Positions 18,692 to 43,657 of a stretch of DNA of 63,765 nucleotides are shown piece after piece. How positions within the stretch are numbered: the stretch's first letter is position 1; each line of letters begins with the position of its first letter. The notes under the pieces were generated by a model. That model was not told the DNA's origin. It saw nothing but the letters and a program-made list of their open reading frames with translations, and ran no database searches. This stretch comes from an uncultured Alphaproteobacteria bacterium (GTDB lineage: Bacteria > Pseudomonadota > Alphaproteobacteria > HIMB59 > GCA-002718135). Both the position numbers and the translations under genes were made by a program. Location: positions 1 to 63,765 of the forward strand of contig CACMGM010000006.1 in NCBI GenBank assembly GCA_902613275.1. Reading direction: 5' to 3'.

Positions 18692-18712
18692 GTCAAAACA
18701 GTAATTAATTTT

Positions 18713-18742: not shown

Positions 18743-18781
18743 ACTATTCCATTTTTTACAATTGATTTATAGAAAAAAATT

Positions 18782-22784: not shown

Positions 22785-22798
22785 TTTTGGGAGGAATT

Positions 22799-25261: not shown

Positions 25262-26794
25262 ATGAAGAAAAAAAATCAATTAAAAGTCTCCAGAAGAACA
25301 GTTATGAAAGGAGCTCTAGCTGCAGGTGCAATGATGTCTGCTGCTTCAATTCCTTCAAAGCTATTCGCAGGAGAATTTAATATTCCTGATCCTTTAAAAC
25401 CACTTCCAACAGATGGTGGTAATTTGAGATGGATAGATACTGGAGATATGAAAGGTGTTTTCTGGAATAAATTATTTCCTGAATATGCTGCTTCAAGAGG
25501 TATAACAATCGAATATGATGGATTACCATGGAAAGAAATTAATAAACTAATTCCACTTGCAGTAAGAAATGGAACTGTTCAAGATGTTTTCCAAATACCT
25601 CTTAATATGGATCCTGGTGTTGCTGTGTCTGAAGGTTGGGTACAACCATGGGATGACTATATTCCAAACTTAGAAGAATGGTTAGCTGGTTTTCCAGGTG
25701 GAGTTTATTTACCGGGAGTCAATCAATTTGGTGGAAAAACATATGGGATTTGTCTAACAGCAAATAAAAGAACTGGAACATGCTTGTTGTATAGTAAAAA
25801 GTATATGACTGAAGCAGGTTATGATCCTGAAGCTGGAAGAATGACATACTCTGAAATAAGAGATGCTGCAAAAAAAATTACTAAAAATGGTAATGGTCAA
25901 TATTATGGATGGATTATCGGTGGTAACCAGGTAAATCGTTGGGAAGATGTTGTTCATACTTTCGGACAAGTTGCTGGAGCTCATGGTGGAAGAGGTGGAT
26001 ATACAAATAGACACATCAGTTTTAAAACTGGAAAATTCCAAATTGCATCTGACCAATATATGGAAGCTGTAGAACTTCTTCTTCAGTTAAAATCTGACGG
26101 AAGTGCATTTCCTGGAGTTATGAGTATGAATGCTCCTCAAGCAAGAGCATTAATGCCTCAAGGTGCAGCTGGAATGATTTTCCAAGGACCTTGGTGTATC
26201 GGAGTTTGGGCAAAAGATGCTCCAAACTGGGAATATGGTATTGCAAGTGAGCCTGTTCCTGATGGAAAAGAAGCTCAACCATTGTACATTGCTGAAGGAG
26301 GTTCAAATACTTTCTGGTTAAGTAAAGATAGTAAAATGGGACCTTTTGCAGGTGATTTAATGCATTTCATGGGCACAGAACAAGGTCAAATTTATTGGGC
26401 ACAAACTGTTGGAGCTGCTGATCCAGCTGTAAACCCTACAGCAGTTGCAAAAGCTGGTTTGACTGGACAATCTGCTAAAGCACTTTCTATGTTTAATGAG
26501 AATTTGCTTGTTGGTCCAAATCCTATAGTTAGAAACAAAGATGTTGGATTAGTTGCAGCAAAAACTCGAATACCTGATCCTTCATTAGCATTGGTTATCC
26601 AAGGTTTATATACTGGTCAAATCAAAGATGTTGAAAAAGCACTTAAAGATTGTAACCAGAGATATGAGGATGAGTTAGACAGAGCTGTTGAAGAAGCAAG
26701 AGCTGAAGGTGCCAATGTTACCAGAGATGATTGGGTATTTCCTAATTGGGATTTATATTCAAACTATGGTGCAGATAAGTATTCTGAACTATAG
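25262..26794 (+). CDS. Tat-exported CUT1 extracellular solute-binding protein
   Basis: This 510-residue protein begins with a twin-arginine signal: SRRTVMK at residues 10-16, a hydrophobic stretch of Ala, Met and Gly, and a cleavage region near KLFAG. The mature part resembles family-1 extracellular solute-binding proteins for oligosaccharides, with LPWKEINKLIPLAVRNG and PQGAAGMIFQGPWCIGVW. At 510 residues it is longer than most of these proteins (about 400-430). A strong GGGAGG precedes the ATG. It heads an operon with two permeases and four sulfatases, so a sulfated sugar or glycoside is a plausible ligand. Ligand identity is inference. Confidence 0.87.
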   Translation: MKKKNQLKVSRRTVMKGALAAGAMMSAASIPSKLFAGEFNIPDPLKPLPTDGGNLRWIDTGDMKGVFWNKLFPEYAASRGITIEYDGLPWKEINKLIPLAVRNGTVQDVFQIPLNMDPGVAVSEGWVQPWDDYIPNLEEWLAGFPGGVYLPGVNQFGGKTYGICLTANKRTGTCLLYSKKYMTEAGYDPEAGRMTYSEIRDAAKKITKNGNGQYYGWIIGGNQVNRWEDVVHTFGQVAGAHGGRGGYTNRHISFKTGKFQIASDQYMEAVELLLQLKSDGSAFPGVMSMNAPQARALMPQGAAGMIFQGPWCIGVWAKDAPNWEYGIASEPVPDGKEAQPLYIAEGGSNTFWLSKDSKMGPFAGDLMHFMGTEQGQIYWAQTVGAADPAVNPTAVAKAGLTGQSAKALSMFNENLLVGPNPIVRNKDVGLVAAKTRIPDPSLALVIQGLYTGQIKDVEKALKDCNQRYEDELDRAVEEARAEGANVTRDDWVFPNWDLYSNYGADKYSEL

Positions 26795-26809
26795 TAATAC
26801 TTTAAATTT

Positions 26810-26838
26810 AAAGGCGAATATCAATATTCGCCTTTTTT
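26810..26838 (+). terminator. perfect hairpin plus T-run between binding protein and permease
   Basis: A 12-base perfect inverted repeat (AAAGGCGAATAT with ATATTCGCCTTT) followed by T's sits 7 bases before the permease start. Because the operon clearly continues, it probably acts as a partial terminator or 3' stabiliser for the binding-protein message. Confidence 0.88.
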
Positions 26839-26844
26839 AATTTT

Positions 26845-27759
26845 ATGAATAGAAAAACATTATTTCAGCAAATTTACGATGCCAGATGGTGTTATATATT
26901 CGTTTTTCCATGTCTTGTAATTACAAGTTTATTTGTTTTATACCCCATAGGAATGTCATGGTATTTTTCTCTTCTTGATTGGACAGGGTTTACCAAGGAT
27001 GCAAAATTTATTGGTTTTCAAAATTATATTGAAGCTGTTAATGATGAGTTTTTTTGGAATGCTTTTTTTAGATCATTTATATTTATGTTTGGAACAGTAC
27101 CTGTAAAAATTATTTTAGGTTTCATAATTGCAGTTTTTTTAAATAATCAAGTTTTAAAACTCGCACCATTTTTTAGAACAATTATTTTTATGCCTGTTGT
27201 TACAGCGATAGCGATAATAGGAATAGTAATGACATTTGTTTTTAGTCCTTTTAATGGACCAGCAAATAAATTTTTAATGGGAATGAATATAACATCTGGG
27301 CCAATAGATTTTTTAGGGGATCCAAATACAGTTTTACCAACTGTAATGGGTGTTTATGTGTGGAAGTGGCTTGGTATTACTATGATGTATTGGCTGGCAG
27401 CTTTACAAACAGTACCACAAGATGTTTATGACGCTGCAAAAATAGATGGTGCCCAAGGATTCAAATTATGGTTCCATATAATACTTCCTATAGTTTTACC
27501 TTTCGCAATTGTTATCGTGCTTGTTGAGGCTGTTGGTGCATTAAATGTATTTCCTTTAATCGAAACAATGACAGCAGGTGGACCTTTTTTTAGTAGTGAG
27601 GTTATGGAGGTTTATATTTTTAGAACTGCATTTGTTACTGACTCAGGAACTATGCCTAGACTTGGTTACGCGTGTGCTGCAGGAGTATTTTGGGGTGTTG
27701 CCGTTCTTTTTATAACTGTACTTCAAGGAATTTGGATAAGAAAAACAAGAAGATTATGA
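26845..27759 (+). CDS. CUT1 sugar ABC transporter permease (MalF/UgpA type)
   Basis: This 304-residue inner-membrane permease has six predicted helices and the EAA loop DAAKIDGAQGFKLWFHIILP, the site that contacts the ATPase. It belongs to the MalF/UgpA side of the CUT1 family, which import di- and oligosaccharides or glycerol-phosphate compounds. Its stop overlaps the start of the partner permease by 4 bases (ATGA). No ATPase gene accompanies the operon. Confidence 0.9.
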   Translation: MNRKTLFQQIYDARWCYIFVFPCLVITSLFVLYPIGMSWYFSLLDWTGFTKDAKFIGFQNYIEAVNDEFFWNAFFRSFIFMFGTVPVKIILGFIIAVFLNNQVLKLAPFFRTIIFMPVVTAIAIIGIVMTFVFSPFNGPANKFLMGMNITSGPIDFLGDPNTVLPTVMGVYVWKWLGITMMYWLAALQTVPQDVYDAAKIDGAQGFKLWFHIILPIVLPFAIVIVLVEAVGALNVFPLIETMTAGGPFFSSEVMEVYIFRTAFVTDSGTMPRLGYACAAGVFWGVAVLFITVLQGIWIRKTRRL

Positions 27760-28607: not shown

Positions 28608-30152
28608 ATGGGTAAAAAACCAAATATTTTATTAATTACTTCTGATCAGCAACATCACGATACAATTGGAAACTTTAATTCTAAAATTCAAACACCTAGT
28701 TTGGATAGACTTTGCAATGAAGGAATGAACTTTACTAGAGCATATTGTCCATCACCAGTATGTACTCCTTCAAGAGCAAGTATCATTACAGGACAATACC
28801 CTTCTTCTCATGGTGCATGGACCATTGGTGTTAAGTTAGAGGAAACAGTGGAAACTATTGGAGAGCTTTTATACAAAAATGGATACTCAACAGGCTTAAT
28901 TGGAAAAGCACATTTTCAACCCCTTACTTCAGTTCCAGGTCAAGAATCAATAGAAGGACAACCGACTCTTAGAGATTTAGAATTTTGGAAAAACTTCAAA
29001 GGACCTTGGTATGGTTTTGAACACATAGAACTTGCTCGTAACCATGCAGATGAAAGTCATGTTGGTCAACATTATGCAATTTGGATGGAACAAAACGGTC
29101 TCAGTGATTGGAAAGAGTATTTTCAACCAGTACCTGGTGAAACTTCTAAATACGCTCCTCCTATTGCTCGTGAATATGACTACTGGGCAAGACCTGATAG
29201 AGTTTGGCAGCTGGATGAAAAATATCACTATACAAACTGGACCGCAGAAAGATCAATTGAATTTTTAGATCAACAAAAAGATGACAAACCATTTTTTCTT
29301 TGGACAAGTTTTCAAGATCCTCATCCTCCATATGTATTAAGTGATCCATGGGCATCTATGTATAATCCAAGTGATATGTCACCAGGAACTTTAAAAGAAG
29401 GAGAGCACGATTTAAATCCACCACATTTTGGTAAAACACAAACAGCTAATCCTGATTTTGAAAATTGGCATTCACCATTTAATGCCCATGGATGTATGAG
29501 TCATTTATATCCTATTGAAGAATTAAAAAAAGATATGGCAATTTATTATGGCATGATTAGTTTTATGGATAAAAATATTGGAAAAATAATTAATAAGTTA
29601 GATCAAATTGGTGAGCTTGATAATACAATAATTATTTTTACTACTGATCACGGACACTTTATTGGACAACACGGTTTAATTGCAAAGGGACCTTTTCATT
29701 ATGAGGATATGCTCCGCTTACCCTTTATTGTTAGATGGCCTGGTAAAGTACCTCAAAATTCTTCATCATCATCTTTGTTAAGTTTAGTTGATCTTGCTCC
29801 AACATTTTTAAAGGTTGCAGGAATTGATATTCCAACTCAAATGCAAGGTGTTGATCAAACTGATGTATTTTATGGTAACGAGGAAAGTATACGTTCTCAC
29901 ATATTTGTTGAAAACAGACATAATCCAAAAATGCCACATTTAAAAACTTACATTAATGATAATTACAAAATTTCTATTTATAGAGAGGCAAACTATGGAG
30001 AGCTTTTTGATTTAGAAAATGATCCAAATGAATATAATAATTTATGGGACAATACGAACGCACAAACATTAAAAAAAGAATTATTATTTAAATTTGCGCA
30101 AGCAACACTAAAAGATGAAACATCAAAAATGAAAAGAGTTTCGGGCGCCTAA
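28608..30152 (+). CDS. cytoplasmic sulfatase, CTPSR type (sulfatase 1)
   Basis: This 514-residue alkaline-phosphatase-fold sulfatase has the formylglycine motif CTPSR at 52-56, so Cys52 must be oxidised by a maturation enzyme before it works. Metal site residues are Asp13 (SDQQ) and Asp347-His348 (TTDHG). The N-terminus MGKKPNILLITSDQQ starts straight into the first strand, with no signal peptide, so it should act in the cytoplasm. The Asp-Gln pair in place of Asp-Asp also occurs in choline sulfatases and phosphonate monoester hydrolases, which are alternatives. It follows two permease genes without a gap. It probably removes sulfate from an imported compound. Confidence 0.88.
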   Translation: MGKKPNILLITSDQQHHDTIGNFNSKIQTPSLDRLCNEGMNFTRAYCPSPVCTPSRASIITGQYPSSHGAWTIGVKLEETVETIGELLYKNGYSTGLIGKAHFQPLTSVPGQESIEGQPTLRDLEFWKNFKGPWYGFEHIELARNHADESHVGQHYAIWMEQNGLSDWKEYFQPVPGETSKYAPPIAREYDYWARPDRVWQLDEKYHYTNWTAERSIEFLDQQKDDKPFFLWTSFQDPHPPYVLSDPWASMYNPSDMSPGTLKEGEHDLNPPHFGKTQTANPDFENWHSPFNAHGCMSHLYPIEELKKDMAIYYGMISFMDKNIGKIINKLDQIGELDNTIIIFTTDHGHFIGQHGLIAKGPFHYEDMLRLPFIVRWPGKVPQNSSSSSLLSLVDLAPTFLKVAGIDIPTQMQGVDQTDVFYGNEESIRSHIFVENRHNPKMPHLKTYINDNYKISIYREANYGELFDLENDPNEYNNLWDNTNAQTLKKELLFKFAQATLKDETSKMKRVSGA

Positions 30153-30168
30153 AAATGAAAGGACTAAT

Positions 30169-31668
30169 ATGAGAATTTTATATGTAGATATTGACTCTTT
30201 AAGACCTGATCACCTGGGATGTTATGGTTATCATAGAAATACATCTCCAACGATTGATTCTATTGCTAATGAAGGAGTTAAATTTACAAATTTTTACTCA
30301 ACCGATACCCCATGCTTACCAAGTAGAACTGCTTTTTTTGGGGGAAACTTTGGCTATAAAACAGGAGTAGTTAATCACGGTGGAGAGTTCTCTGATATTG
30401 CTCCTCGAAAAAATATTTGGGATAGAGAATTTAAGGGAGGCCTAAGAGGTGAGTATGCCTTTACTTCACTTGGAAAAGTTTTACGAGATGCAGGTTATTA
30501 CACAGCCAGCATAAGTCCATTTCCAGAAAGACATACGGCTTATCAAGTCTGGTTTGGTTTTACAGAAACTTATGACACAGGAAAAGGTGGATTAGAAAAT
30601 GCCGATGAAGTCTATCCTGTTATAAAAAAATGGTTAGAGAATAATGGAGAAAAAGATAATTGGTTTTTACATGTTAACATGTGGGATCCACACACACCAT
30701 ATGATACACCAAAAGAATTTGGTAATCCTTTTAAAAACGATCCTATAGAAGATTGGGTAACAGAAGAATTGATTAAAAAACAAAGAGATAGTTTTGGACC
30801 ACACAGTGCAAGAGAAGTTCCAGGATTCGATGATGATCTTAGAGGTAAGTATACAATGGGTGTTGGGGAAATAAAAAACATTGCTGACGCTAAAGAACAA
30901 TTAGATGCTTATGATACAGGAATTAATTATGCAGATTTATATTTAAGTAAAGTTATTGAAGATTTAAAAAAAATGAATCTTTGGGATGATACTGCTATTA
31001 TTATATCTGCAGATCACGGTGAAAATCAAGGCGAGTTAAATGTTTGGGGAGATCATCAAACAGCAGATCATATTACTAATAGAGTTCCATTAATTATTAG
31101 ATGGCCAGGAATTACTGACTCAAATAAAGGCAGTACAGTAGAAAATAAATTTTATAATTTAGATTTAACTTCAACAATTTCTCAAATAGTATCTTCAACT
31201 CAACCAGATAGGTGGGATGGAATAAATTTCAGTGATAATCTTAAAGATAATACCTCTAAAAATGGAAGAGATTATTTAGTCATAAGTCATGGTGCGTGGA
31301 GTTGTCAAAGATCAGTGCGCTGGGATAATTGGTTACTCATTAGAACTTATGATACAGGTTTGAAAGATTTTCCAAAATATATGCTATTTGATATTGATAA
31401 AGATCCACACGAATTGCATAATATAGCTGAGCAGCATAAGGATTTAGTCTCTCACGGTATGTTTTTAATCGATGAGTGGATTGAAGAAAATATGTATGAG
31501 GCTGATAGAGGAGATCCACTTCAAGGTGTAATAAGGGAAGGTGGTCCTCATCATGCAAATATATTTTCAAAAGTCTGGAATACATATGTTGAACGTCTCG
31601 AAAAAACAGATAGAAAAAAGCACGCTGATAATCTTAGAAAATATAAAGGAAAACCTTTTAGTAAATAA
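30169..31668 (+). CDS. cytoplasmic sulfatase, CLPSR type (sulfatase 2)
   Basis: This 499-residue sulfatase has CLPSR at 49-53 with formylglycine precursor Cys49, the metal-binding DID at 7-9 and ADHGEN with Asp282-His283. MRILYVDIDSLRPDHLGCYGY opens directly with the active-site strand, so there is no signal peptide. The second half ends in a C-terminal subdomain with the usual sulfatase FDIDKDPHELHN block. AAAGGA lies 10 bases before the ATG. It differs clearly from sulfatases 1 and 3-5, which suggests a different position or linkage specificity rather than a recent duplicate. Confidence 0.88.
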   Translation: MRILYVDIDSLRPDHLGCYGYHRNTSPTIDSIANEGVKFTNFYSTDTPCLPSRTAFFGGNFGYKTGVVNHGGEFSDIAPRKNIWDREFKGGLRGEYAFTSLGKVLRDAGYYTASISPFPERHTAYQVWFGFTETYDTGKGGLENADEVYPVIKKWLENNGEKDNWFLHVNMWDPHTPYDTPKEFGNPFKNDPIEDWVTEELIKKQRDSFGPHSAREVPGFDDDLRGKYTMGVGEIKNIADAKEQLDAYDTGINYADLYLSKVIEDLKKMNLWDDTAIIISADHGENQGELNVWGDHQTADHITNRVPLIIRWPGITDSNKGSTVENKFYNLDLTSTISQIVSSTQPDRWDGINFSDNLKDNTSKNGRDYLVISHGAWSCQRSVRWDNWLLIRTYDTGLKDFPKYMLFDIDKDPHELHNIAEQHKDLVSHGMFLIDEWIEENMYEADRGDPLQGVIREGGPHHANIFSKVWNTYVERLEKTDRKKHADNLRKYKGKPFSK

Positions 31669-31680
31669 ATGTAAATAATA

Positions 31681-33048
31681 ATGAATACTAAATCTAAACC
31701 AAACATCATCGTATTTTTTACTGATCAACAACGTTGGGATACATCTGGTTTACATGGCAACCCATTATCCTTAATGGAAAACTTTGATCACTACGCTGTT
31801 GAAGGTACACACCTTTTTAATTCATTTACTTGCCAACCAGTTTGTGGGCCAGCAAGAGCTTCATTACAGTCAGGGATGTATGCAACGAAAACTGGATGTT
31901 TTAAAAATAGAATACCTTTAAAAAAAAATATTAAAACTCTAGCAAAATATTTATCAAAAGAAGGATATGCCACAGGATACATAGGAAAGTGGCACCTTGG
32001 TTCTTCAGAGCCAGTTAAAAAAGAGGATAGAGGTGGTTATGATTATTGGTTGGGATCAAATCTATTAGAATTTACATCTGATGCTTATGAAACATATGTA
32101 TATGATGGACAAAATAAAAAAGTTTTTCTCCCCGGGTATAGAGTTGATGCAATAACTGATGCCGCAATAAATTTTATAAAACTAAATCAAAAAAAACCAT
32201 TTTTTCTTTTTGTTTCACTTATTGAACCACACCATCAAAATAATACAGATGATTATCCACCACCGATTGGATACCGAGAAAAATATACAGGTAAGTGGTC
32301 GCCACCAGATCTATCATCCTTAGTCGGATCCTCTCCTCGACATTTAGGTGGTTATTATGGAATGGTTAAGAGAATAGATGAAGCTTATGGAAGAATGATT
32401 GATGTTATTAAAAGCTTAAAATTATTTGATGATAGTGCAATTATTTTTACATCTGATCATGGAAATAATTTTAAAACAAGAAATAGAGAATATAAACGTT
32501 CTTGCCATGAAAGTTCAATACGAGTCCCTACATCTTTAATTGGAAATGTTTTTCAACAAGGTGGACGTATAAAAGAACTAACCAACATATTAGATATTCA
32601 TGCAACAATATTAGACCTGGCAAAAGTAAAAAATACATCTCATTGTGATGGTAAATCAGTATTACCTTTAGTAAATAAAACTTCCAAAAAATGGGAAAAT
32701 GAAATTTTTATTCAAATCAGTGAAAGTCAATTAGCTAGAAGTCTGAGAACAGAGAAATGGAAATATTGTATTGCTGATAATGATTCTAGTGGAAATGATA
32801 AATCTTCATCTAACCAATACACTGAAACAAACCTATACGATCTTGATGCTGATCCATATGAATTAAACAATCTAATTGGCATTAGTACGTATGATGAAAT
32901 AACAGCCTCATTAAGAAAAAAGATTAAAAACAAAATTCAAAAAGTTGAAAATATTACATCCAAAATTAAAAAAGCTGAGAATATAAATAATCCTGGTCAA
33001 ATGGGATTAAACCCTGATTCTTTTCATCGATTAAAGAAAAAACTTTAA
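31681..33048 (+). CDS. cytoplasmic sulfatase, CGPAR type (sulfatase 3)
   Basis: This 455-residue sulfatase has CGPAR at 55-59, with Cys55 as formylglycine precursor and Ala in place of the usual Ser, an accepted form of the C-x-P-S/A-R motif. Asp15 (TDQQRWD) and Asp259-His260 (SDHGNN) are metal ligands, and YIGKWHLG near residue 100 is the typical family motif. There is no signal peptide. The last 40 residues are Lys/Asn-rich and probably helical. It is the third gene in a row of four sulfatases on one transcript. Confidence 0.88.
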   Translation: MNTKSKPNIIVFFTDQQRWDTSGLHGNPLSLMENFDHYAVEGTHLFNSFTCQPVCGPARASLQSGMYATKTGCFKNRIPLKKNIKTLAKYLSKEGYATGYIGKWHLGSSEPVKKEDRGGYDYWLGSNLLEFTSDAYETYVYDGQNKKVFLPGYRVDAITDAAINFIKLNQKKPFFLFVSLIEPHHQNNTDDYPPPIGYREKYTGKWSPPDLSSLVGSSPRHLGGYYGMVKRIDEAYGRMIDVIKSLKLFDDSAIIFTSDHGNNFKTRNREYKRSCHESSIRVPTSLIGNVFQQGGRIKELTNILDIHATILDLAKVKNTSHCDGKSVLPLVNKTSKKWENEIFIQISESQLARSLRTEKWKYCIADNDSSGNDKSSSNQYTETNLYDLDADPYELNNLIGISTYDEITASLRKKIKNKIQKVENITSKIKKAENINNPGQMGLNPDSFHRLKKKL

Positions 33049-33078
33049 TAATTATTTATTTCATATTAATCTATTTCT

Positions 33079-34590
33079 ATGAAAACAGTTTTCCTCTTAT
33101 TTGATTCATTAAATAAAAGAATGTTAAACTCCTATGGTGGTAAATATATTGAAACGCCAAATTTTAATCGATTAGCAGAAAAATCAGTTCAGTTTAATAA
33201 TCATTATATTGGTAGTATGCCTTGTATGCCTGCAAGAAGAGACATGCATTCAGGACGATTAAGTTTTTTGCATCGTGCATGGGGACCACTAGAACCATTT
33301 GATAATTCATTTCCAGAAATTTTACGTCTTAATGATACATACACTCATCTTGTCACAGATCATTATCATTATTTTGAGGATGGAGGTGCAACTTATCATA
33401 ATCGATTTAATTCTTGGGATTTTATCAGGGGACAAGAAAGCGACCCATGGAAAGCCATGGTACAACCACCGCTTGAAAAATTAAGAGAAAAATATCATCA
33501 ATCTCAATTAAATTTAACTAATAGAGAAACAGGATACTATCATTATGCAATAAATAGTGAGTTTATTAAAGATGAAAAAGATTTTCCTTCGGTTAAATGC
33601 TTTGAATCTGGTTTAGACTTCATCAATATTAATAAAGATGCTGATAATTGGTTTCTTCAACTAGAAACCTTTGATCCTCATGAACCTTTTTTTGCACCAG
33701 AGCGATTTAGAGAGAAATTAAAAACAAATTATACAGGCCCAAGATTAGATTGGCCTCAGTATGACAGAGTCAAAGAAACAGATGATGAGGTTGCAGAGTT
33801 AAAAGCCAATTACATTGCTTTAGTTGGACTATGTGATTATTTGCTTGGTACTGTTTTAGATTATTTTGATGAAAATAACTTATGGAATGACACTGCATTG
33901 ATCTTAACAACTGATCATGGTTTCATGCTTGGAGAACATGATTGGTGGGCTAAAAACAGAATGCCATTGTATAATGAAATTGCAAATATACCTTTCTATT
34001 TTTATCACCCTGAATACAAACAATATTCGGGAGAGCAAAGAAATGTTGTAACTCAAAACATTGATCTGATGCCAACATTCATGACATTGCACGGCCACAA
34101 TCTTCCTAAAGAAGTTAAAGGCAAGTCATTGCTAAACTTTTTAGATAAAGATAGTGAAAATGAACATTTCGCTTTGTATGGATATTGGGGCGGGGGTATA
34201 AATATTTCTGATGGAAACTATTCATATTTTCATTTTCCAGAAAATTTTGATCAATATGATAGAAGTAGATTTCAATATACATTGATGCCAACAAATATGA
34301 GGCAATTTTTTTCACATGAAGAATTGCAAACTGCTACCATGCATGAACCGTTTAACTTTACTAAGAATATTCCAGTCATGAAAGTTAACAGAATTCTTAG
34401 AAAATCAGATCCACATAAATCACTAGAAGATACTAAATGCGCACTTTATAATTTGAAGGAAGATCCCGGTCAAATACATCCTATTAATGATGAGGATTTA
34501 ATAAACAAATATAAAAATCTTATGCTGAATGAAATTAAAACATATGATCCACCAAAAGAATTATTAAAAAATTATTTTAAAGAAAATTAA
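33079..34590 (+). CDS. cytoplasmic sulfatase, CMPAR type (sulfatase 4)
   Basis: This 503-residue sulfatase has CMPAR at 49-53 with Cys49, Asp279-His280 in TTDHGFMLGEHDWW, and Asp9 in FDSLNKR. Position 10, usually a second acidic or Gln residue, is Ser here. There is no signal peptide. The motif RRDMHSGR just after the active-site helix and the long middle region up to residue 180 set it apart from the other four. A phosphodiesterase-like activity cannot be excluded, since the family shares its chemistry. Its stop touches the start of the 92-residue gene, so the two are coupled. Confidence 0.86.
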   Translation: MKTVFLLFDSLNKRMLNSYGGKYIETPNFNRLAEKSVQFNNHYIGSMPCMPARRDMHSGRLSFLHRAWGPLEPFDNSFPEILRLNDTYTHLVTDHYHYFEDGGATYHNRFNSWDFIRGQESDPWKAMVQPPLEKLREKYHQSQLNLTNRETGYYHYAINSEFIKDEKDFPSVKCFESGLDFININKDADNWFLQLETFDPHEPFFAPERFREKLKTNYTGPRLDWPQYDRVKETDDEVAELKANYIALVGLCDYLLGTVLDYFDENNLWNDTALILTTDHGFMLGEHDWWAKNRMPLYNEIANIPFYFYHPEYKQYSGEQRNVVTQNIDLMPTFMTLHGHNLPKEVKGKSLLNFLDKDSENEHFALYGYWGGGINISDGNYSYFHFPENFDQYDRSRFQYTLMPTNMRQFFSHEELQTATMHEPFNFTKNIPVMKVNRILRKSDPHKSLEDTKCALYNLKEDPGQIHPINDEDLINKYKNLMLNEIKTYDPPKELLKNYFKEN

Positions 34591-34869
34591 ATGCCCAAAA
34601 GACAAAAAGTTTTAGTTCTTTATTTAAAATTTCCAAGTCTAGAAGCTGAAGTTATTTCATGGGCTACTTTTGATGGTACTGGTCAAAAACTCCATATGAC
34701 AGGTGATAGTGACGAGCCTCCTTATCCTACAGGCCTCGACGCCTTATTAGATGGATGGAGATTATTTCAATCAAGTCAAGCCATCCCAGAGCATCCAGGA
34801 GAAGAATTTAGGACCTCATATTTAAAACATGAATTTTTTTTTGAAAAAATAGAACAAGGAGATTTTTAA
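34591..34869 (+). CDS. unknown 92-residue protein in sulfatase operon
   Basis: I do not recognise this protein. It has no signal peptide, membrane segment or Cys. It opens KRQKVLVLYLKFPSLEAEVISW, a predicted beta strand and turn, and then has a Gly/Pro/Asp-rich middle (TGDSDEPPYPTGLD). It ends in a helix-like segment DALLDGWRLFQSS and an aromatic strand KHEFFFEKIEQGDF. The size and all-soluble composition suggest a small binding or regulatory subunit. It is coupled directly to sulfatase 4 (no gap) and lies 1 base before the PhyH gene, so it probably works with one of them. Confidence 0.7.
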   Translation: MPKRQKVLVLYLKFPSLEAEVISWATFDGTGQKLHMTGDSDEPPYPTGLDALLDGWRLFQSSQAIPEHPGEEFRTSYLKHEFFFEKIEQGDF

Positions 34870-34870
34870 G

Positions 34871-35791
34871 ATGGTACAATTATTATCGACCGAGCAAATG
34901 GCAGAGTTTGCTAATAGTGGATGCTTATTTTTTGATGGATTAATAGATAATGAAACTAACAAAGAATTTTTAAACGATATTGGACACACCGATATTGAGA
35001 ATGTTGATAATATGCAAAAGTATTTTCAAAATATTAAAGCCTCTAGCAGCATTCCTAGAATTCCTGCAGGGACACCACTCAAAAATGCTTATCCATATAA
35101 ATCTCCTTTAGAAAAAATTTTCAAAAATGAAGTTGTAGCAGGAGCAATTAATAGTTTAGTTGGATCTGATGCCGTAGTTGATCATCAATTTCTTCATCTA
35201 ACATTTCCAACAAAATACTTTAAAAAAACTAACCAACGTCAGATGTCTCAAGTTAATCATCAAGATAGCACAATTGATCCAAGAACTACTTTCGATATCC
35301 AATTATTTTACTTTCCGACTGCTGTTACTAAAGAAATGGGTGGTACAAGATATATTCCTGGTACACATTTAAGAATAGTAAATGAAATGGGAATCGCAAA
35401 ATATCAAAATATAAAAGGACAAAAAAATATCATATGTAAAGCAGGTACAATAGGAATTTTCCATAATGGATTGTGGCATGGTGCTGGAGTTAATTTTTCA
35501 GATGATATCAGATATATGTTTAAAGTAAGATTACAGCCTACTGAGAAACAGGAACTATTATGGGATCCTGAAAAAAAATATCAACCTTTACCAAACCGAG
35601 CTTTGTATTGGACTGATGAAACTAAGGATCAAACTATCAATGATATTTTAATGAGGTCCTATCCTTGGCAAGAAGCAGATACTAATAGACTTGATAAAAT
35701 AAATGTTGTCAAGTTTTGGAGGTTATTAACTGGTCACAAGAAAATGGATGTCGACTATTGGCTTACAAGAATTGAAAACGAATTATATTAA
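34871..35791 (+). CDS. PhyH-family dioxygenase in sulfatase operon
   Basis: This 306-residue protein fits the PhyH group of Fe(II)/2-oxoglutarate dioxygenases, with His130 and Asp132 (NHQDS), His203 (LWHGAG) and Arg214 (DDIRYM). It is not a close copy of the dioxygenase at 22799. It is the last gene of the transcript that starts at the Tat-exported binding protein, and it shares a TTAA stop overlap with sulfatase 5 on the other strand. An oxygenase in a sulfatase operon could hydroxylate the carbon skeleton or remove an O-alkyl or sulfate group oxidatively; that is inference. Confidence 0.85.
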   Translation: MVQLLSTEQMAEFANSGCLFFDGLIDNETNKEFLNDIGHTDIENVDNMQKYFQNIKASSSIPRIPAGTPLKNAYPYKSPLEKIFKNEVVAGAINSLVGSDAVVDHQFLHLTFPTKYFKKTNQRQMSQVNHQDSTIDPRTTFDIQLFYFPTAVTKEMGGTRYIPGTHLRIVNEMGIAKYQNIKGQKNIICKAGTIGIFHNGLWHGAGVNFSDDIRYMFKVRLQPTEKQELLWDPEKKYQPLPNRALYWTDETKDQTINDILMRSYPWQEADTNRLDKINVVKFWRLLTGHKKMDVDYWLTRIENELY

Positions 35792-37296
35792 TTGAAATCT
35801 CTTTCATCACCTTTTAGTGGAACAACATCACAAGTTTCTTGGTACCATGAAAGCATTTTATCTTTTAGTTTTTTAAGTTCTGATGCATATTGAGGATCCT
35901 CAATAACATTATTAATTTCTCCAGGATCTTCGATTAAATTATAAAACTCATCTTTTTCGTAAGCTCTTTTAATATATTTAAATTTTTTATTTCTGCACAT
36001 TGTTGCTTTAGTATGCATTAAAATTTCATCCTCTTGACCTTGTAAACTAACTCTAGGATAATAAAGACCATGGGGTAATTGAAGACTTTGATTTTCACTT
36101 GCTTGTCTTTCTAATCTAAGTCTACCACCTTCCGTAAATACCTCTTCTCTATGATTATCAGTTTTCTGTTCAATAAAATTTTTAATACTTTTGCCAAAAT
36201 GCCAATATGAGGGTTCGATATTACTGTAATCATATATGGTTCCCGCAATATCAATTAATTCAATCATTGTATCGCTTACACCACTTAATGTATTTTCACT
36301 TTTTGGTGGTTTAATAATAAGAGGAACATTAGTAAGACAGTCTTGAAAAGTATTTTGTGTTTTTTCAACTAAATTATAATCACCTGTAAAGTCACCATGA
36401 TCAGATAAAAAAATTATTAAAGTATCATCATACAAATTATTTTCTTTTAGTTGATTGACCAAAAGTCCAAATTGATAATCTACTCTTGCACACATACCAA
36501 GATATACCGCTCGTAATTCATTCCAACGTTCATCGGTCCAATCTTGCATTCTTTGTCCATCCATAATTCCTTTTAAAAGACTTGGCTTGTCTTCCCAAGT
36601 TTTGTATTGATATCTATTAGGTATTACGCTTCGATCAATTAAAGAGAACCATGGATCCTCTACACAGTAAGGAGGATGCGGATAACCAAGTGGTAGAAAT
36701 AAACAGAATGGTTTATCTTCTTTATAGTCTTTTATAAAATCTAATGCTCCATAAACCATGGACCAATCGTCATCGAAATAAATATCTTTATCTTTTTTAT
36801 CTAATTTTCCTTTGAAGAAACTATAATAATTATCTCCATCTTCAGGTCCTCTCCATGATAAATCTCCCCCATGTGTGCCTGGTTGTTGAGTATAGCCCCA
36901 TTTTTGAAAATCTCTATCAGTTGGTTCAAAATAAATATCACAATGATTACGATAACCTTCTTGTCCTGCTATCAAATCATTTTTTCCACCCCACCAAATA
37001 AAGTAATCTTTATTTTTTAGTTCAGATAAAATACTGGAGTCACCTTGATCTGTATGTAACATATAATGCATTGTTCTATGACCATGTACATGTGGATACC
37101 AACCAGTCATAAATGAGCAACGACTTGGTGTACAAACTGTCGCTTGGCAAAAAGCATTCTTAAATGCAACTGCATCATCATTAATTATATTATCTAAATT
37201 TGGTGTTTTAGCTCCAGAATAACCAAGATATCCTAGCATATCCCCTCTCCATTGGTCAGGATTAAATATAAGTATGTTTGGAGTTTTATTAGTCAT
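35788..37296 (-). CDS. cytoplasmic sulfatase, CTPSR type (sulfatase 5)
   Basis: This 502-residue sulfatase on the minus strand has CTPSR at 55-59 with Cys55, Asp14 (PDQWRGD) and Asp299-His300 (SDHGDF). MTNKTPNILIFNPDQWRGD shows no signal peptide. DQWR is also the opening of phosphonate monoester hydrolases, so the substrate could be a sulfate or a phospho/phosphonate ester. It is divergent from the second CUT1 operon across a 122-base gap and convergent with the PhyH gene, so it is probably controlled with the second importer. Confidence 0.87.
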   Translation of the reverse strand: MTNKTPNILIFNPDQWRGDMLGYLGYSGAKTPNLDNIINDDAVAFKNAFCQATVCTPSRCSFMTGWYPHVHGHRTMHYMLHTDQGDSSILSELKNKDYFIWWGGKNDLIAGQEGYRNHCDIYFEPTDRDFQKWGYTQQPGTHGGDLSWRGPEDGDNYYSFFKGKLDKKDKDIYFDDDWSMVYGALDFIKDYKEDKPFCLFLPLGYPHPPYCVEDPWFSLIDRSVIPNRYQYKTWEDKPSLLKGIMDGQRMQDWTDERWNELRAVYLGMCARVDYQFGLLVNQLKENNLYDDTLIIFLSDHGDFTGDYNLVEKTQNTFQDCLTNVPLIIKPPKSENTLSGVSDTMIELIDIAGTIYDYSNIEPSYWHFGKSIKNFIEQKTDNHREEVFTEGGRLRLERQASENQSLQLPHGLYYPRVSLQGQEDEILMHTKATMCRNKKFKYIKRAYEKDEFYNLIEDPGEINNVIEDPQYASELKKLKDKMLSWYQETCDVVPLKGDERDFN

Positions 37297-37418
37297 TAAT
37301 ATTTATTAATATTACATCATTATAATTTATATTTGTTTAAAATTATCACAATTATTTAGGTTTAATATAAAATCGCTTAATGTTATAAATTAAAGTATAA
37401 AATCTAAGGGAGGATTAA
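37297..37418. promoter_or_regulatory. divergent region sulfatase 5 / second CUT1 operon
   Basis: This 122-base gap is very A+T-rich and must hold promoters for both directions. Several TATAAT- or TATAAA-like boxes occur (37321-37326, 37384-37389), but none has a convincing -35 partner. The plus-strand end carries the GGGAGGATTAAATGAA leader shared with the other CUT1 binding-protein gene. Confidence 0.35.
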
Positions 37419-38669
37419 ATGAAATTATTAATAAAAATTTTTTTTTCATTAACAATCTTGACGTCATTTAGTTCTGTAAATGCAGATACTATAAAATGGC
37501 TTCATTTAGTTGGTGAAGACTCAAAAGAATATCCTAGCATGGTTAGAGCTGCTGAAGAATTCGAAGCTAAAACAGGACACACTGTAGTGATGCAGTATTT
37601 AGAAAACGAATCTTTTAAAGCAAAACTACCAACAATGCTTCAATCAAATGATAGACCAGATATATTTTATAGCTGGAGTGGTGGAGTAATGTATGATCAA
37701 GCTAAAGCTGGTTTCTTGAGAGACATCTCAGATGTTGTACCGGACAGTTATTTAGACACTGTTAGTGCAGCTGCGGCAGATGCATTTACATATGAGGGAC
37801 AAAGAGTAGGTTTACCTTTACAAGTTGCTCAAGTAGCTTGGTGGTATAATAAAGAATTAATAAATCAAGCTGGTGTTGATGTTTCAAATATAAAAGAATG
37901 GGATGATTTAATTAGTGCTGTAAAACAAATTAAAGCAGCTGGCATAACTCCTATTTGTATGGGTGGTAAAGATAAATGGCCAGTTCACTTTCTTTGGACT
38001 CACCTACATATAAGAAATGGTGGAAAAGGATTATTCCTTGAATCATTAAATAATGGTGGTTGGGATAGACCAGAATACATCAAATCAGGTGAGCAAATGC
38101 TTGAACTAGTAGCTTTAGAGCCTTTTCAAAAGGGATTTTTAGCACACACTTGGCCAGATCAAGCTGGGTTTTTTGGGGATGGCAAATGCGCAATGGCTCT
38201 TATGGGTAATTGGATGTATGGATCACAGGCTGCAAATAGTGCAAGTGGAGAAGGTTTAGGTGATGATAACATGGGAATGTTTAATATGCCAATGACTAGT
38301 GGTGGTCTTGGTGACCCTGGAGATACCCTTGGCGGTATCAATGGTTGGTTGTTCTCAAGCAGTGCTCCAGACTCAGCAGTTGAGCTAATCATGCATTATG
38401 TATCGTTAGATATCCAAAAGGAAAATGCATCTCTTGGTGCTTATATCCCTATTGTTAAGGGAGCAGATGTTGCTCTTTCAAACCCTTTCTTACAACAAGT
38501 AGCTAAGAACATTGCTAATTCAGAATATCATCAAATTTTCTACGATCAGTTTTTAGGAGCTGATATTGGAAGAGTTGTTAATGATGTATCAACTGATTTA
38601 GCCGCAGGAATTATTACTCCTGAAGAAGCTACTCAAGCTGTTCAAGAAGCTTGGGAATTTAATCAATAA
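37419..38669 (+). CDS. CUT1 extracellular sugar-binding protein (second CUT1 importer)
   Basis: This 416-residue protein has a Sec signal peptide of about 22 residues ending SSVNA, then the family-1 solute-binding fold: TIKWLHLVGEDSKEYPSMVRAAEEFEAKTG at the N-terminus, FYSWSGGVMYDQAKAGFLRDI and CAMALMGNWMYGSQA in the ligand cleft. The ligand is probably a di- or oligosaccharide or glycoside. It leads an operon with two permeases, a Gfo/Idh/MocA oxidoreductase, a ThuA protein and XylA. A strong GGGAGGA precedes the ATG. A hairpin follows the gene. Confidence 0.9.
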   Translation: MKLLIKIFFSLTILTSFSSVNADTIKWLHLVGEDSKEYPSMVRAAEEFEAKTGHTVVMQYLENESFKAKLPTMLQSNDRPDIFYSWSGGVMYDQAKAGFLRDISDVVPDSYLDTVSAAAADAFTYEGQRVGLPLQVAQVAWWYNKELINQAGVDVSNIKEWDDLISAVKQIKAAGITPICMGGKDKWPVHFLWTHLHIRNGGKGLFLESLNNGGWDRPEYIKSGEQMLELVALEPFQKGFLAHTWPDQAGFFGDGKCAMALMGNWMYGSQAANSASGEGLGDDNMGMFNMPMTSGGLGDPGDTLGGINGWLFSSSAPDSAVELIMHYVSLDIQKENASLGAYIPIVKGADVALSNPFLQQVAKNIANSEYHQIFYDQFLGADIGRVVNDVSTDLAAGIITPEEATQAVQEAWEFNQ

Positions 38670-38679
38670 CATAAATATC

Positions 38680-38704
38680 AGGGCTCTTTTAATTAAAGAG
38701 CCCT
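38680..38704 (+). terminator. hairpin after binding-protein gene, weak T tract
   Basis: A perfect 10-base stem (AGGGCTCTTT with AAAGAGCCCT) with a 5-base loop is followed by AATTATTATT rather than a T-run, so it is a poor terminator. It is more likely a stabilising 3' structure. It sits between binding-protein and permease genes, 10 bases before the permease start. Confidence 0.7.
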
Positions 38705-38714
38705 AATTATTATT

Positions 38715-39614
38715 ATGAGATCACCAAAATTTGATGCACTTCTAAGTAGGTATTATACAATAATTATTTTTTTAATACCTGCTTTAACAATATTTACATT
38801 GTTTGTAGTACTTCCAATAGGTGAAGCAGCGTATTACAGTTTTTTTAGATGGAATGGCTATGGTGCACCTGAAAAATTTGTTGGATTTAAAAATTACGAA
38901 TTTTTATTCAAAAATAGAGTGTTTATTTTATCACTCAAAAATAATTTTTATATAATTGCTATATCATTATTTGTGCAGTTGCCTTTTGCTCTTTTAATTG
39001 CATTAATGATCTCAGACAAATTAAGAGGAGCTGCTTTTTTTAGAACTGTATTTTTTCTTCCATTTATTTTAGCAGAAATAGTTACAGCGTTAATCTGGGC
39101 ATATATTTACGATGGTAATTATGGTTTAGTTGCTGCAATATGGGGATTTTTTGGAGCAGAGGCACCATTTGTACTTGGTGATAAGGATTGGGCATTAGTA
39201 GCAATATTAATTGTTATATTTTGGAAATTTTTTGGAATTCACATGATGATTTATATTGCAGGATTGCAAGCTATTTCAAAAGAAGTTTTAGAGGCAGCTA
39301 AAGTAGATGGAGCAGGCCCAATAACAACTGCCTTTAGAATTAAAATGCCAATGCTTATTCCAACAATTAAGCTTTCAGTTTTTTTATCACTATTAGGTAG
39401 CTTACAGCTTTTTGATATTATTATGCCACTAACAGGAGGAGGGCCTTCAAATGTAACACATTCGATGGTTTCTTATTTATATTACTTTGGTGTGATGCGA
39501 ATGAAAGTTGGATTTGGAAGTGCAGTTGGAGTTGTAATATTTTTAATTTGTTTATTTATTGCAATTGGTTATCAAAGAACATTAATGAGAGATGATAATG
39601 AAAACAAATTTTAG
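38715..39614 (+). CDS. CUT1 sugar ABC transporter permease (MalF type)
   Basis: This 299-residue permease has six membrane helices and the EAA loop EAAKVDGAGPITTAFRIKMPML that contacts an ATPase. It matches the MalF/UgpA side of the CUT1 family, with LQLFDIIMPLTGGGPSNVTHSM in the C-terminal core. It overlaps its partner permease by about 20 bases. As in the first CUT1 operon, no ATPase gene is nearby. Confidence 0.9.
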   Translation: MRSPKFDALLSRYYTIIIFLIPALTIFTLFVVLPIGEAAYYSFFRWNGYGAPEKFVGFKNYEFLFKNRVFILSLKNNFYIIAISLFVQLPFALLIALMISDKLRGAAFFRTVFFLPFILAEIVTALIWAYIYDGNYGLVAAIWGFFGAEAPFVLGDKDWALVAILIVIFWKFFGIHMMIYIAGLQAISKEVLEAAKVDGAGPITTAFRIKMPMLIPTIKLSVFLSLLGSLQLFDIIMPLTGGGPSNVTHSMVSYLYYFGVMRMKVGFGSAVGVVIFLICLFIAIGYQRTLMRDDNENKF

Positions 39615-40422
39615 AACTTATTATTTGTATCTTCTTCTATTTTTTCTAGCAGGAGTAATTATTATTCCATTATATGTTTCAGTAATGGGGGGCTTTAAAC
39701 ACACTGGTGAACTTAGAACAAACTCTTTAGGCTTACCAATAGACTGGAAGTTTGAAAATTATACATCTCTTTTAATAAATTCTGATTTCTGGCTTTTTTT
39801 ATGGAACTCAACAGTATACGCAGTTGGAACTACTTTTTTTGTAGTCTTATTTGCCTCTATGACAGCTTTTGTTTTTGCTCATGTAAAATTTGCAGCAAAT
39901 AAATTTCTTTATAATTATTTTTTACTAGGACTAATGTTTCCATTTGCTACTGCTATTTTACCTTTGTTTTTAAGAGTGCGTGATTTTGGTTTATTGGGTA
40001 CAAGTTGGGCTGTTATAATTCCACAAATTGCATTTGGGCTTGGTTTTTCTATAATTCTTTTTCGAGGATTTTTTAGACAAATGCCAAAAGAGATATTTGA
40101 AGCTGCTGTTTGCGATGGCTGTAGTTATACACAATTTTATTTTAGGTTTACTCTTCCTTTATCAACTCCAATCTTAGCAACAGTTAGCGTTATTACTCTT
40201 ACAGGAAGCTGGAACAATTATCTTTTGCCACTTATAATGATTAATGATGAGTCACTTTACTCATGGCCAATGGGTATAATGGTTTTTAGAGGTGAGTACT
40301 TCACTGATTGGGGTAAAATATTAGCTTATGTTTCCCTAACACTTGTACCAGCAGTAGTTTTCTTTTTTGCACTGCAAAAATATATCGTTGCTGGTTTAAC
40401 GGGTGGAGCGGTTAAAGAATAG
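39592..40422 (+). CDS. CUT1 sugar ABC transporter permease (MalG type)
   Basis: This 276-residue permease has six helices and the EAA loop FEAAVCDGCSYTQFYFRFTLPL, with GSWNNYLLPLIM near the C-terminal core, as in MalG/UgpE proteins. An ATG two codons inside (39598) is an equally good start. It overlaps the preceding permease gene and ends 13 bases before the Gfo/Idh/MocA gene. It completes the channel of the second CUT1 importer. Confidence 0.9.
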   Translation: MIMKTNFRTYYLYLLLFFLAGVIIIPLYVSVMGGFKHTGELRTNSLGLPIDWKFENYTSLLINSDFWLFLWNSTVYAVGTTFFVVLFASMTAFVFAHVKFAANKFLYNYFLLGLMFPFATAILPLFLRVRDFGLLGTSWAVIIPQIAFGLGFSIILFRGFFRQMPKEIFEAAVCDGCSYTQFYFRFTLPLSTPILATVSVITLTGSWNNYLLPLIMINDESLYSWPMGIMVFRGEYFTDWGKILAYVSLTLVPAVVFFFALQKYIVAGLTGGAVKE

Positions 40423-40435
40423 ATTGGAATATATT

Positions 40436-41605: not shown

Positions 41606-42319
41606 ATGAAAAAAGCTTTAATAGTTTATGGGGGATGGCCTGGACACCAACCAGAAAAATGTAATGAAATTTTAACTGAAATGTTAGAGCCTGATGGTTA
41701 TGAGATAAGATCTGAGTATTCAACCTCTGCTTTTGCTCAAGATTACGTTCATGAAATGGACTTAATTATACCAATAGTAACGATGGCTTTTCATCATTCA
41801 CCTAGTGGTGAAATTAAAAAGAACGAAGTGAATAATGTTGTAAAGGCAGTTATAAATGGTTGCGGTCTTGCTGGGCATCATGGAGGAATGTGTGATGCTT
41901 TTAGACAATCAATTGATTGGCAATTCTTAACTGGTGGACAATGGGTAAGTCATCCAAATGGTATTCATGACTATAAAGTTAATATAACTAAAAAAGATGA
42001 TCCAATAATGGATGGTGTTGAGGATTTTGATTATCATTCTGAACAGTATTACATGCATGTAGATCCTATGAACGAAGTTCTTGCCACTACTACTTTCCAA
42101 GGCCATGAAATTTGGAAATTAGAACAAGAACCTGGAAAACCTGGAGATGATCAATATCAAACTGAATGGATAAAAGGTGTAGAAATGCCAGTTGTATGGA
42201 AAAGAAAAATTGGAAAAGGTAAAATTTTTTACACTTCTCTTGGACATTTTGCAGATGAATTAAACTATCCTGAAATGAGAAAAATTTATCATCGTGGTTT
42301 GCTTTGGGCATCAAGATAG
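41606..42319 (+). CDS. ThuA-domain protein
   Basis: This 237-residue protein matches the ThuA-like family (trehalose utilisation), a class I glutamine-amidotransferase-like fold. It has KALIVYGGWPGHQPEKC at the start, then NGCGLAGHHGGMCDAFR, GGQWVSHP and a C-terminal GKGKIFYTSLGHFADEL. ThuA proteins act with Gfo/Idh oxidoreductases in sugar pathways (ThuAB converts trehalose-type disaccharides to keto forms), but the chemistry of ThuA itself is not firmly established. It starts directly after the Gfo/Idh stop, a pairing that recurs in the family. Confidence 0.87.
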   Translation: MKKALIVYGGWPGHQPEKCNEILTEMLEPDGYEIRSEYSTSAFAQDYVHEMDLIIPIVTMAFHHSPSGEIKKNEVNNVVKAVINGCGLAGHHGGMCDAFRQSIDWQFLTGGQWVSHPNGIHDYKVNITKKDDPIMDGVEDFDYHSEQYYMHVDPMNEVLATTTFQGHEIWKLEQEPGKPGDDQYQTEWIKGVEMPVVWKRKIGKGKIFYTSLGHFADELNYPEMRKIYHRGLLWASR

Positions 42320-42343
42320 AGTAAAATAATTTAGGGAGAAGAT

Positions 42344-43657
42344 ATGACAAATTATTTTAAAAATATTCCTGAAATAAAATTTGAAGGAGAAAATAGTTCG
42401 AACCCATTAGCATTTAAATTCTATGATGAAGATAAAGTTGTTTTAGGAAAAACAATGAAAGAACATTTAAGATTTGCTACTTGTTATTGGCATACATTTA
42501 CTTGGCCTGGCCTTGATCCATTTGGTGGTCAAACATTTGATAGACCTTGGATGCAAGCAGGTGATGAAATGAAAATGGCTGAAATGAAGCTTGACGCAGC
42601 ATTTGAATTTTTTACTAAAATAAAAACACCCTTTTTCTGCTTTCACGATAGAGATATTTCTCCTGAAGGTTCAAATTATGCTGAGACACAAAAAAATTTT
42701 TTTCATACTATAGATTTAATGGAACAAAAAATTAATGACTCAGGAATGAAATTACTGTGGGGAACAGCAAATGCTTTTTCTCATAAAAGATATATGAGTG
42801 GAGCTTCGACCAATCCAGACCCAGAAGTTTTTGCATATAAAGCTGCACAAGTGAAAGATTGTATGGATGCAACGATGAGATTGGGTGGTCAAAACTACGT
42901 TCTTTGGGGTGGAAGAGAAGGATACGAAACTATTCTTAATACTGACATGACTAAGGAGACAGCTAATCTTGAAAGATTTTTAGAATTAGTTGTTAACTAT
43001 AAACACAAGATAGGATTTAAAGGTCAAATTTTATTGGAACCAAAACCTCATGAACCAACTAAACATCAATATGATTTTGACTCTGCTACTTGCTTAGCGT
43101 TTTTACGAAAGGCAGGTTTAGAAAATGAGATTAAATTAAATGTTGAAGTTAATCATGCAACTTTATCTGGTCATAATTTTGAACATGAAATTGCTTATGC
43201 AACTTCAAACAGTGCTTTAGGAAGTATCGATATTAATAGAGGTGATACATTAATAGGTTGGGATACGGATCAATTCCCAAATAATCCTTCTGACTTAATT
43301 ATGTCATTTTATTTTATTTTTAAGAATGGCGGCTTAGGTCAAGGAGGCATGAACTTTGATGCAAAAATAAGAAGACAATCTATCGATGCTGAAGATTTAT
43401 TCCATGCTCATATTGGAGGCATGGATGTTTGTGCAAAAACACTTATTGCTGTTGAAAAACTGATGCATGATAATGTTATTCCTAGGTTTATTGAAGATAG
43501 ATATGAAGACTGGAATAAAAATTTGGGTCAGTTTATTCATAATAAAGATACTGGATTAGATGATATAAATAAAAAAGTAATCGATGATAATATTGAACCA
43601 GAACCTCGTTCAGGAAGACAAGAATATCTGGAAAATATCTTAAATAAATATTTGTAG
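42344..43657 (+). CDS. xylA: xylose isomerase XylA
   Basis: XylA interconverts D-xylose and D-xylulose and also acts on glucose. The 437-residue TIM-barrel protein keeps the catalytic His101 and Asp104 (FHDRDISPEG) and metal ligand Glu232 (LLEPKPHEPTKHQYDFD), at the same numbers as in the classical E. coli enzyme, and the substrate block HTFTWPGLDPFGG near 50-62. AGGGAGAAG precedes the ATG. It ends the CUT1 operon, so a xylose-containing compound is a plausible product of the upstream steps. Xylulokinase is not in the window. Confidence 0.95.
   Translation: MTNYFKNIPEIKFEGENSSNPLAFKFYDEDKVVLGKTMKEHLRFATCYWHTFTWPGLDPFGGQTFDRPWMQAGDEMKMAEMKLDAAFEFFTKIKTPFFCFHDRDISPEGSNYAETQKNFFHTIDLMEQKINDSGMKLLWGTANAFSHKRYMSGASTNPDPEVFAYKAAQVKDCMDATMRLGGQNYVLWGGREGYETILNTDMTKETANLERFLELVVNYKHKIGFKGQILLEPKPHEPTKHQYDFDSATCLAFLRKAGLENEIKLNVEVNHATLSGHNFEHEIAYATSNSALGSIDINRGDTLIGWDTDQFPNNPSDLIMSFYFIFKNGGLGQGGMNFDAKIRRQSIDAEDLFHAHIGGMDVCAKTLIAVEKLMHDNVIPRFIEDRYEDWNKNLGQFIHNKDTGLDDINKKVIDDNIEPEPRSGRQEYLENILNKYL

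Follow-up and report, generated by a model that had tools for sequence, protein, structure and literature searches.

A modular sulfatase and CUT1 importer island in a marine AEGEAN-169 bacterium whose relatives lack both known sulfatase maturases

Introduction

What would a small marine genome do with five sulfatases that appear to stay inside the cell, and how could such enzymes be activated? The question is raised by a 63,765-nucleotide stretch of an uncultured alphaproteobacterium of the order HIMB59 (contig CACMGM010000006.1, positions 1 to 63,765; the whole stretch is called the window), in which five sulfatase genes, S1 to S5, lie between two CUT1-type importers. We conclude that this island is probably a modular scavenging system that combines CUT1 import of sulfated solutes with five cytoplasmic sulfatases. 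Relatives of the window genome have conserved sulfatases of the Cys type and lack both known maturases, a state that for the window itself we infer from those relatives. Published sources are cited by PMC number and, except where the text is specified, from excerpts.

Results

Five sulfatases without signal peptides

The original prediction described five signal-less sulfatases that share a C-x-P-S/A-R active-site motif. All five open reading frames (ORFs) are present, exceed the PF00884 cut-off of 25 bits with scores of 100.6 to 191.4, and on reading of the sequence carry the C-x-P-[SA]-R signature.

28608..30152, plus strand: sulfatase S1, CTPSR; PF00884 191 bits; top solved match 9ihk, named Sulfatase_S1_30A
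30169..31668, plus strand: sulfatase S2, CLPSR; PF00884 138 bits; top solved match 7oz8, named choline-sulfatase
31681..33048, plus strand: sulfatase S3, CGPAR; PF00884 163 bits; top solved match 5g2v, N-acetylglucosamine-6-sulfatase
33079..34590, plus strand: sulfatase S4, CMPAR; PF00884 101 bits; top solved match 4upk, named phosphonate monoester hydrolase
35788..37296, minus strand: sulfatase S5, CTPSR; PF00884 114 bits; top solved match 4uph, named sulfatase (sulfuric ester hydrolase) protein

For S5, three structures named as sulfatases (4uph, 4upi and 4upl) rank ahead of 2w8s, which is named a phosphonate monoester hydrolase. Fold and signature together suggest filing S1 to S5 as S1-type sulfatases, an assignment that carries no claim of formylglycine dependence.

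The absence of signal peptides was judged from the hydropathy of N-terminal 12-residue segments and from reading of the sequences. The maximum near the N terminus is 0.31–0.89 in S1 to S5, well under the 1.59–2.52 of three binding proteins encoded in the window, and the leading residues, which already belong to the first beta strand, show no hydrophobic stretch of the kind seen in those binding proteins. Wrongly chosen starts, which might have hidden signals, do not account for this, since each sulfatase ORF already begins at the first ATG, GTG or TTG after the in-frame stop and no such upstream start has been overlooked.

The two importers that were predicted to flank the sulfatases, one of them with a Tat-exported binding protein, are also borne out.

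25262..26794, plus strand: CUT1 binding protein 1, PF01547; Tat-type leader SRRTVMK, read in the sequence
26845..27759, plus strand: CUT1 permease 1a; 54% identity to a Devosia permease of loci L092/L094, the L094 permease matching PF00528
27672..28607, plus strand: CUT1 permease 1b; 59% identity to a Devosia permease; probable start near 27756
37419..38669, plus strand: CUT1 binding protein 2, PF01547 122 bits; Sec-type leader, read in the sequence
38715..39614, plus strand: CUT1 permease 2a, by position and sequence; conserved across loci
39592..40422, plus strand: CUT1 permease 2b, by position and sequence; conserved across loci

Each set comprises a binding protein of the SBP_bac_1 family (PF01547) and two permeases, the composition by which CUT1 importers were recognized. 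The permeases of set 1 were assigned by homology to PF00528 proteins and those of set 2 from reading of the sequence. As predicted, S1 abuts a permease, its start at 28608 immediately following the stop of permease 1b at 28607.

Conservation and modularity of the island

The island was compared with loci found by an S4-based search of named genomes, of which the best 80 of 310 were analyzed: 53 from the family of the window genome and 27 others, with family membership set by identity and not by label. Three contigs labelled Flavobacteriales or Euryarchaeota (L055, L061 and L073) carry an S4 that is 78–91% identical to that of the window and are probably mis-binned. Isolate names of the AG- type, AG-337-I02 among them, account for 47 of the 80 loci, and we take these to be single-cell genomes. 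The AEGEAN-169 marine group corresponds to genus AG-337-I02 in the order HIMB59 (PMC8692485). The nearest genome, G001, has 25% of sampled 31-mers in common with the window and carries the same five-sulfatase block together with three further PF00884 matches, C-x-P-x-R being present in all eight of its PF00884 proteins.

The genes between S4 and S5, which the original prediction had left out, and the flanks of the island are as follows.

22787..23734, plus strand: PhyH-family oxygenase (PhyH0), left flank, PF05721 106 bits; kept in many loci
23754..24737, plus strand: fatty-acid-desaturase-like protein, left flank, PF00487; kept in many loci
34591..34869, plus strand: 92-residue uncharacterized protein, no Pfam match; 590 homologs; structure model with a predicted local distance difference test score (pLDDT) of 83
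34871..35791, plus strand: PhyH-family oxygenase within the block, PF05721 47 bits
40403..41605, plus strand: Gfo/Idh/MocA oxidoreductase, right flank module, PF01408
41606..42319, plus strand: ThuA-family protein, right flank, PF06283 139.5 bits
42344..43657, plus strand: xylose isomerase XylA, right flank, TIGR02630 657 bits (cut-off 533)

The search for the same block in related genomes was positive: S1, S2, S3 and S4 in this order, followed by S5 on the opposite strand, recur in 29 of the 80 loci, and 27 of these 29 also contain the 92-residue ORF and PhyH. The flanks are recurrent, with PhyH0 and the desaturase on the left and Gfo/Idh, ThuA and XylA on the right, while the content between them varies from S4 alone (L051) or S4 with S5 (L047) to blocks in which an extra CUT1 set is inserted after S4 (L038–L044, L066) or in which S1 to S5 are kept with neither PhyH nor the 92-residue ORF in the locus (L045, L046). 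Because constant flanks enclose a variable filling, the island is a conserved, modular cassette site of the marine AEGEAN-169 group (genus AG-337-I02).

The sulfatases themselves are under strong purifying selection. Median ratios of nonsynonymous to synonymous substitution (dN/dS) against the window are 0.031, 0.040, 0.037, 0.038 and 0.063 for S1 to S5, and CxPxR is kept in all 175 orthologs (29, 29, 32, 52 and 33, respectively, at ≥60% identity in the 53 family loci).

Importer linkage and cytoplasmic desulfation

Within 6 kb of S4, 40 of the 53 family loci and 12 of the 27 others have a CUT1-type permease. The genes of Amaricoccus macauensis (L083) run from a binding protein through two permeases, assigned by sequence only, and an ATPase to S4, with a 4-base overlap between the ATPase and S4 genes. 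A TauE/SafE exporter directly follows S4 in L080 and lies ~2.4 kb from it in L082. The cluster shared by Devosia rhodophyticola (L092) and D. algicola (L094) consists, in order, of a binding protein, two permeases, an ATPase, a second sulfatase, a canonical formylglycine-generating enzyme (FGE), a CLC channel, for which the scan was made in L094, and S4. Identities to the window are 44% for the binding protein, 54 and 59% for the permeases and 52–53% for the S4-type protein, which in L094 lacks a signal peptide, as does S4 of the window; the ATPase, the canonical FGE, the CLC channel and the presence of two sulfatase genes set the Devosia cluster apart from the window block. The S1-type sulfatase of D. 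algicola reads as two overlapping ORFs (L094, 5387–6920), and that of D. rhodophyticola is a single 510-residue ORF.

Import followed by cytoplasmic desulfation, as the original prediction proposed, thus appears well supported, and the Amaricoccus, L080 and Devosia gene orders support it independently of the window genome. Gene anatomy, the absence of signal peptides, conserved CUT1 linkage and strong purifying selection form its observed basis. The solutes taken up by the CUT1 importers and their binding proteins would be small and sulfated, probably sugar or polyol sulfates; five different sulfatases would then cleave off the sulfate in the cytoplasm; the sugar thus released would enter sugar pathways encoded nearby; and the sulfate would leave through export proteins presumably encoded elsewhere. 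This scheme takes the substrates of S1 to S5 to be sulfate esters, shared between sulfatases and importers. Since the window encodes rhamnonate-hydrolase-like, lactate-dehydrogenase-like, IolD, CUT2 and XylA genes, deoxyhexose, inositol or pentose sulfates are plausible candidates.

Several observations weigh against this interpretation. No CUT1 permease was detected within 6 kb of S4 in 13 of the 53 family loci and 15 of the 27 others, some of these on short contigs. No CUT1 ATPase gene was seen in the block on reading of its ORFs, and one may sit elsewhere in the genome. The top solved match of S4 is named for phosphonate monoesters, not sulfate esters. Finally, the original prediction named the absence of a maturation enzyme from the genome as a result that would refute it, and the relatives show neither known kind, as the following section describes; on balance the prediction is supported in part.

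Maturation enzymes in the family

We surveyed 100 family genomes of 58–96% completeness. PF00884 matches occur in 78 of them, at one to eight per carrying genome, and an FGE-type (PF03781) protein in 15. The FGE cysteine pair, which is catalytic, was found in none of these 15 proteins: in place of the GGSxxCxxxYCxRxR motif they read RGGSxxYAxDHWHxGGGAR. Genus-wide, PF03781 matches occur in 17 of 102 genomes, all of 231–250 residues and with E-values no better than 6e-38, the proteins of G417 and G423 lying outside the motif reading. A profile built from 28 canonical FGEs added nothing in the family genomes to these 15 proteins without the pair, which it matched at E-values of 6e-16 at best. 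In several loci (among L009–L016 and L183–L189, all AEGEAN-169) the cysteine-less protein adjoins a CSPSR sulfatase and a 504-residue protein.

The anaerobic sulfatase-maturing enzyme (anSME; TIGR03942) is likewise above cut-off in none of the 100 genomes. Weak matches in 37 of them, the best of which, in G045, scores 75 bits where the cut-off is 349, are read as other radical-SAM proteins. A different radical-SAM maturase was considered and rejected: SPASM-domain proteins (PF13186) occur in 29 of the 100 genomes and are absent from G007, G009, G013, G016, G017 and G021, all of them genomes with between six and eight PF00884 matches.

It is very improbable that a normal FGE is present and was missed through incomplete assembly or excessive divergence. 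The completeness range of the survey leaves some room for it; against this stand the outcome of the 28-FGE profile and a chance of ~1e-23 that a universal maturase would be missed in all 32 S1-type carriers, of which 30 have no PF03781 match at all, a figure that assumes independent misses set by completeness and carriers assigned by E-value and frame length.

The proposal that the PhyH oxygenase of the block, with the 92-residue protein, is a new formylglycine-generating enzyme is scarcely credible. Relatives of it at E≤1e-30 occur in 46 family genomes (42 at ≥84% identity, the other four only at 52–56%), and all 46 carry a PF00884 match (Fisher p 1.6e-7); against a maturase role, 32 of the 78 PF00884-bearing genomes have no such relative, 7 of these having four or more PF00884 matches, and L045 and L046 keep S1 to S5 with neither gene in the locus. 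PhyH is linked to the pathway and is not a general maturase.

The maturase gap across Alphaproteobacteria

In a class-wide sample of 289 genomes, 84 have S1-like matches (E≤1e-20), two of these genomes belonging to the family, and 153 have PF03781 at E≤1e-10. Outside the family, PF03781 is found in 73 of 82 sulfatase genomes versus 80 of 205 genomes without a sulfatase. The stronger PF03781 matches were read in 51 of the 73, a few listed matches aside, the remaining 22 having weaker matches only, which were left unread. The canonical pair is present in 16 of the 51 (15 by a stricter script, plus L145/G142, which the script missed), so the association in the class stems largely from proteins without the cysteine pair. 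The idea that FGE absence is a peculiarity of the AEGEAN-169 clade is weakened by the same count.

Among 27 non-family genomes with an S4 ortholog, 23 have PF03781, 11 have a canonical FGE among the matches read, and four have no PF03781. We also read 28 S1-type loci in the class, of which 22 show C-x-[PA]-x-R (a script had flagged 23, L128 being a wrong ORF); 6 of these 22 are in genomes with a canonical FGE among the matches read and 16 in genomes where the matches read include none, the PF03781 matches for four of the 16 being only weak and unread. A number of alphaproteobacteria with Cys-type sulfatases thus seem to do without a canonical FGE as well; the anSME search covered the family genomes only. 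Five genomes of 88–96% completeness (G165, G206, G222, G156 and G277) have at least three S1-like sulfatase matches and no PF03781 at E≤1e-10, and are possible further cases of sulfatases without FGE.

How the sulfatases might be activated

Either a third maturation route exists, or S1 to S5 are active unmodified or on other esters. In our view a further route is somewhat more likely than none. Maturation machinery for Cys-type sulfatases has not been identified in E. coli, and the proposal of a third system there dates from 2007 (cited in PMC6189696; suspected in PMC8379841). We tentatively suggest that AEGEAN-169, and probably also further alphaproteobacteria that have Cys-type sulfatases in the cytoplasm, may form formylglycine by a third maturation enzyme of the kind suspected there since that year.

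It is possible, and in our estimate unlikely, that S1 to S5 instead work with a plain, unmodified cysteine as slow multiple-turnover hydrolases, in which case a slow-growing oligotroph that concentrates its substrate in the cytoplasm would need no FGE. The relatives without a canonical FGE or an above-cut-off anSME fit such enzymes. The CxPxR proline, a residue by which maturases recognize their targets, is invariant in the 175 orthologs, and the homologous Devosia cluster carries an FGE; both argue for maturation. The choline sulfatase of E. meliloti does turn over unmodified, and the caryophylli phosphonate monoester hydrolase retains activity too, but 5 to 2500-fold more activity is expected with formylglycine (PMC6189696), and all S1 sulfatases so far investigated need it (PMC8484680).

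We doubt that S1 to S5, as members of the alkaline-phosphatase superfamily, hydrolyze phosphonate monoesters or phosphodiesters for phosphorus scavenging and are not sulfatases. The top match of S4, the lower-ranking 2w8s match of S5 and the reported potential of AEGEAN169 clades for phosphonate use (PMC11366302) point in that direction. Against it, the top matches of S1 and S3 are carbohydrate sulfatases, the importers that accompany them are of the sugar type (CUT1), the proteins scanned included no phosphonate lyase, and TauE/SafE directly follows S4 in L080.

Other genes of the window

The original prediction saw no glycoside hydrolase, and none was seen among the proteins scanned, a part of the window ORFs, so that this claim stands for that part. 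The starts of the permease 1b and Gfo/Idh ORFs probably lie downstream of the listed GTG. A 2,4-diketo-rhamnonate-hydrolase-like protein is encoded at 9545 (391 bits, under a cut-off of 500), an L-lactate-dehydrogenase-like protein at 10405 (below the model cut-off) and IolD at 12988 (above the curated cut-off), and the window also encodes a sugar-type CUT2 importer. SDR, diketo-deoxy-rhamnonate-hydrolase-like and FMN L-lactate-dehydrogenase-like genes are consecutive at 8820–11559 and probably encode the last part of a non-phosphorylating pathway for L-fucose or L-rhamnose. At 12988–19930, IolD adjoins the CUT2 importer and a Gfo/Idh oxidoreductase in a probable inositol utilization locus.

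The 92-residue protein, which adjoins PhyH here, belongs to a highly conserved family (≥60% identity across 59 aligned proteins, including those of Streptomyces) whose named members among the 590 relatives span marine Alphaproteobacteria to Streptomyces. Its structure model had no fold match in the PDB at E≤0.001.

Discussion

Three known systems resemble the island in part. Choline-sulfatase (BetC), like S1 to S5 a Cys-type S1 sulfatase, is a non-exported enzyme that acts on an imported small sulfate ester. The proteins of the block fall far under its model (TIGR03417, best 197 bits against a cut-off of 433). In some settings its gene occurs mainly with an ABC-type betaine-binding protein and an ATP-binding protein, and E. 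meliloti has a putative FGE (PMC6189696), unlike the AEGEAN-169 relatives. Phosphonate monoester hydrolase, or PehA, shares with S4 the alkaline-phosphatase superfamily and the sulfatase signature, and the window proteins reach at best 187 bits with the model for this phosphoric/sulfuric ester hydrolase (NF045661, cut-off 900). The exported sulfatases of polysaccharide utilization loci are S1-type and clustered in numbers, as in the window block, which differs from those loci in its lack of signal peptides, its ABC importers and the absence of glycoside hydrolases among the scanned proteins.

The kinds of parts found here are already known, as is a mean of five sulfatases per genome (2–8) in Ca. 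Indicimonas (AEGEAN169), called not enriched in an account that also gives a GH29 fucosidase in 20% of representatives (PMC11366302). The excerpt is silent on cytoplasmic location or importer linkage, and the text of that paper makes no mention of formylglycine or maturation. Sulfatases are not mentioned in Getz et al. (PMC10308909), and the excerpt of PMC13063451, retrieved by a search on sulfatase, SAR11 and formylglycine, does not treat the AEGEAN-169 clade. Literature searches on cytoplasmic or intracellular sulfatases with transporters, and on phosphonate monoester hydrolase with formylglycine and cytoplasm, found nothing. What is new is that a small marine genome combines importers with five sulfatases that lack signal peptides, and that its relatives have neither known maturase.

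Sulfated sugars are a large and slowly used pool of marine carbon. Import followed by desulfation would let a small-genome oligotroph use fragments of it without sharing the products. With one to eight PF00884 matches per carrier, Cys-type enzymes throughout in the nearest genome, no known activator, and few candidate genes because the genomes of the clade are small, AEGEAN-169 would make the old question of a third formylglycine system directly testable.

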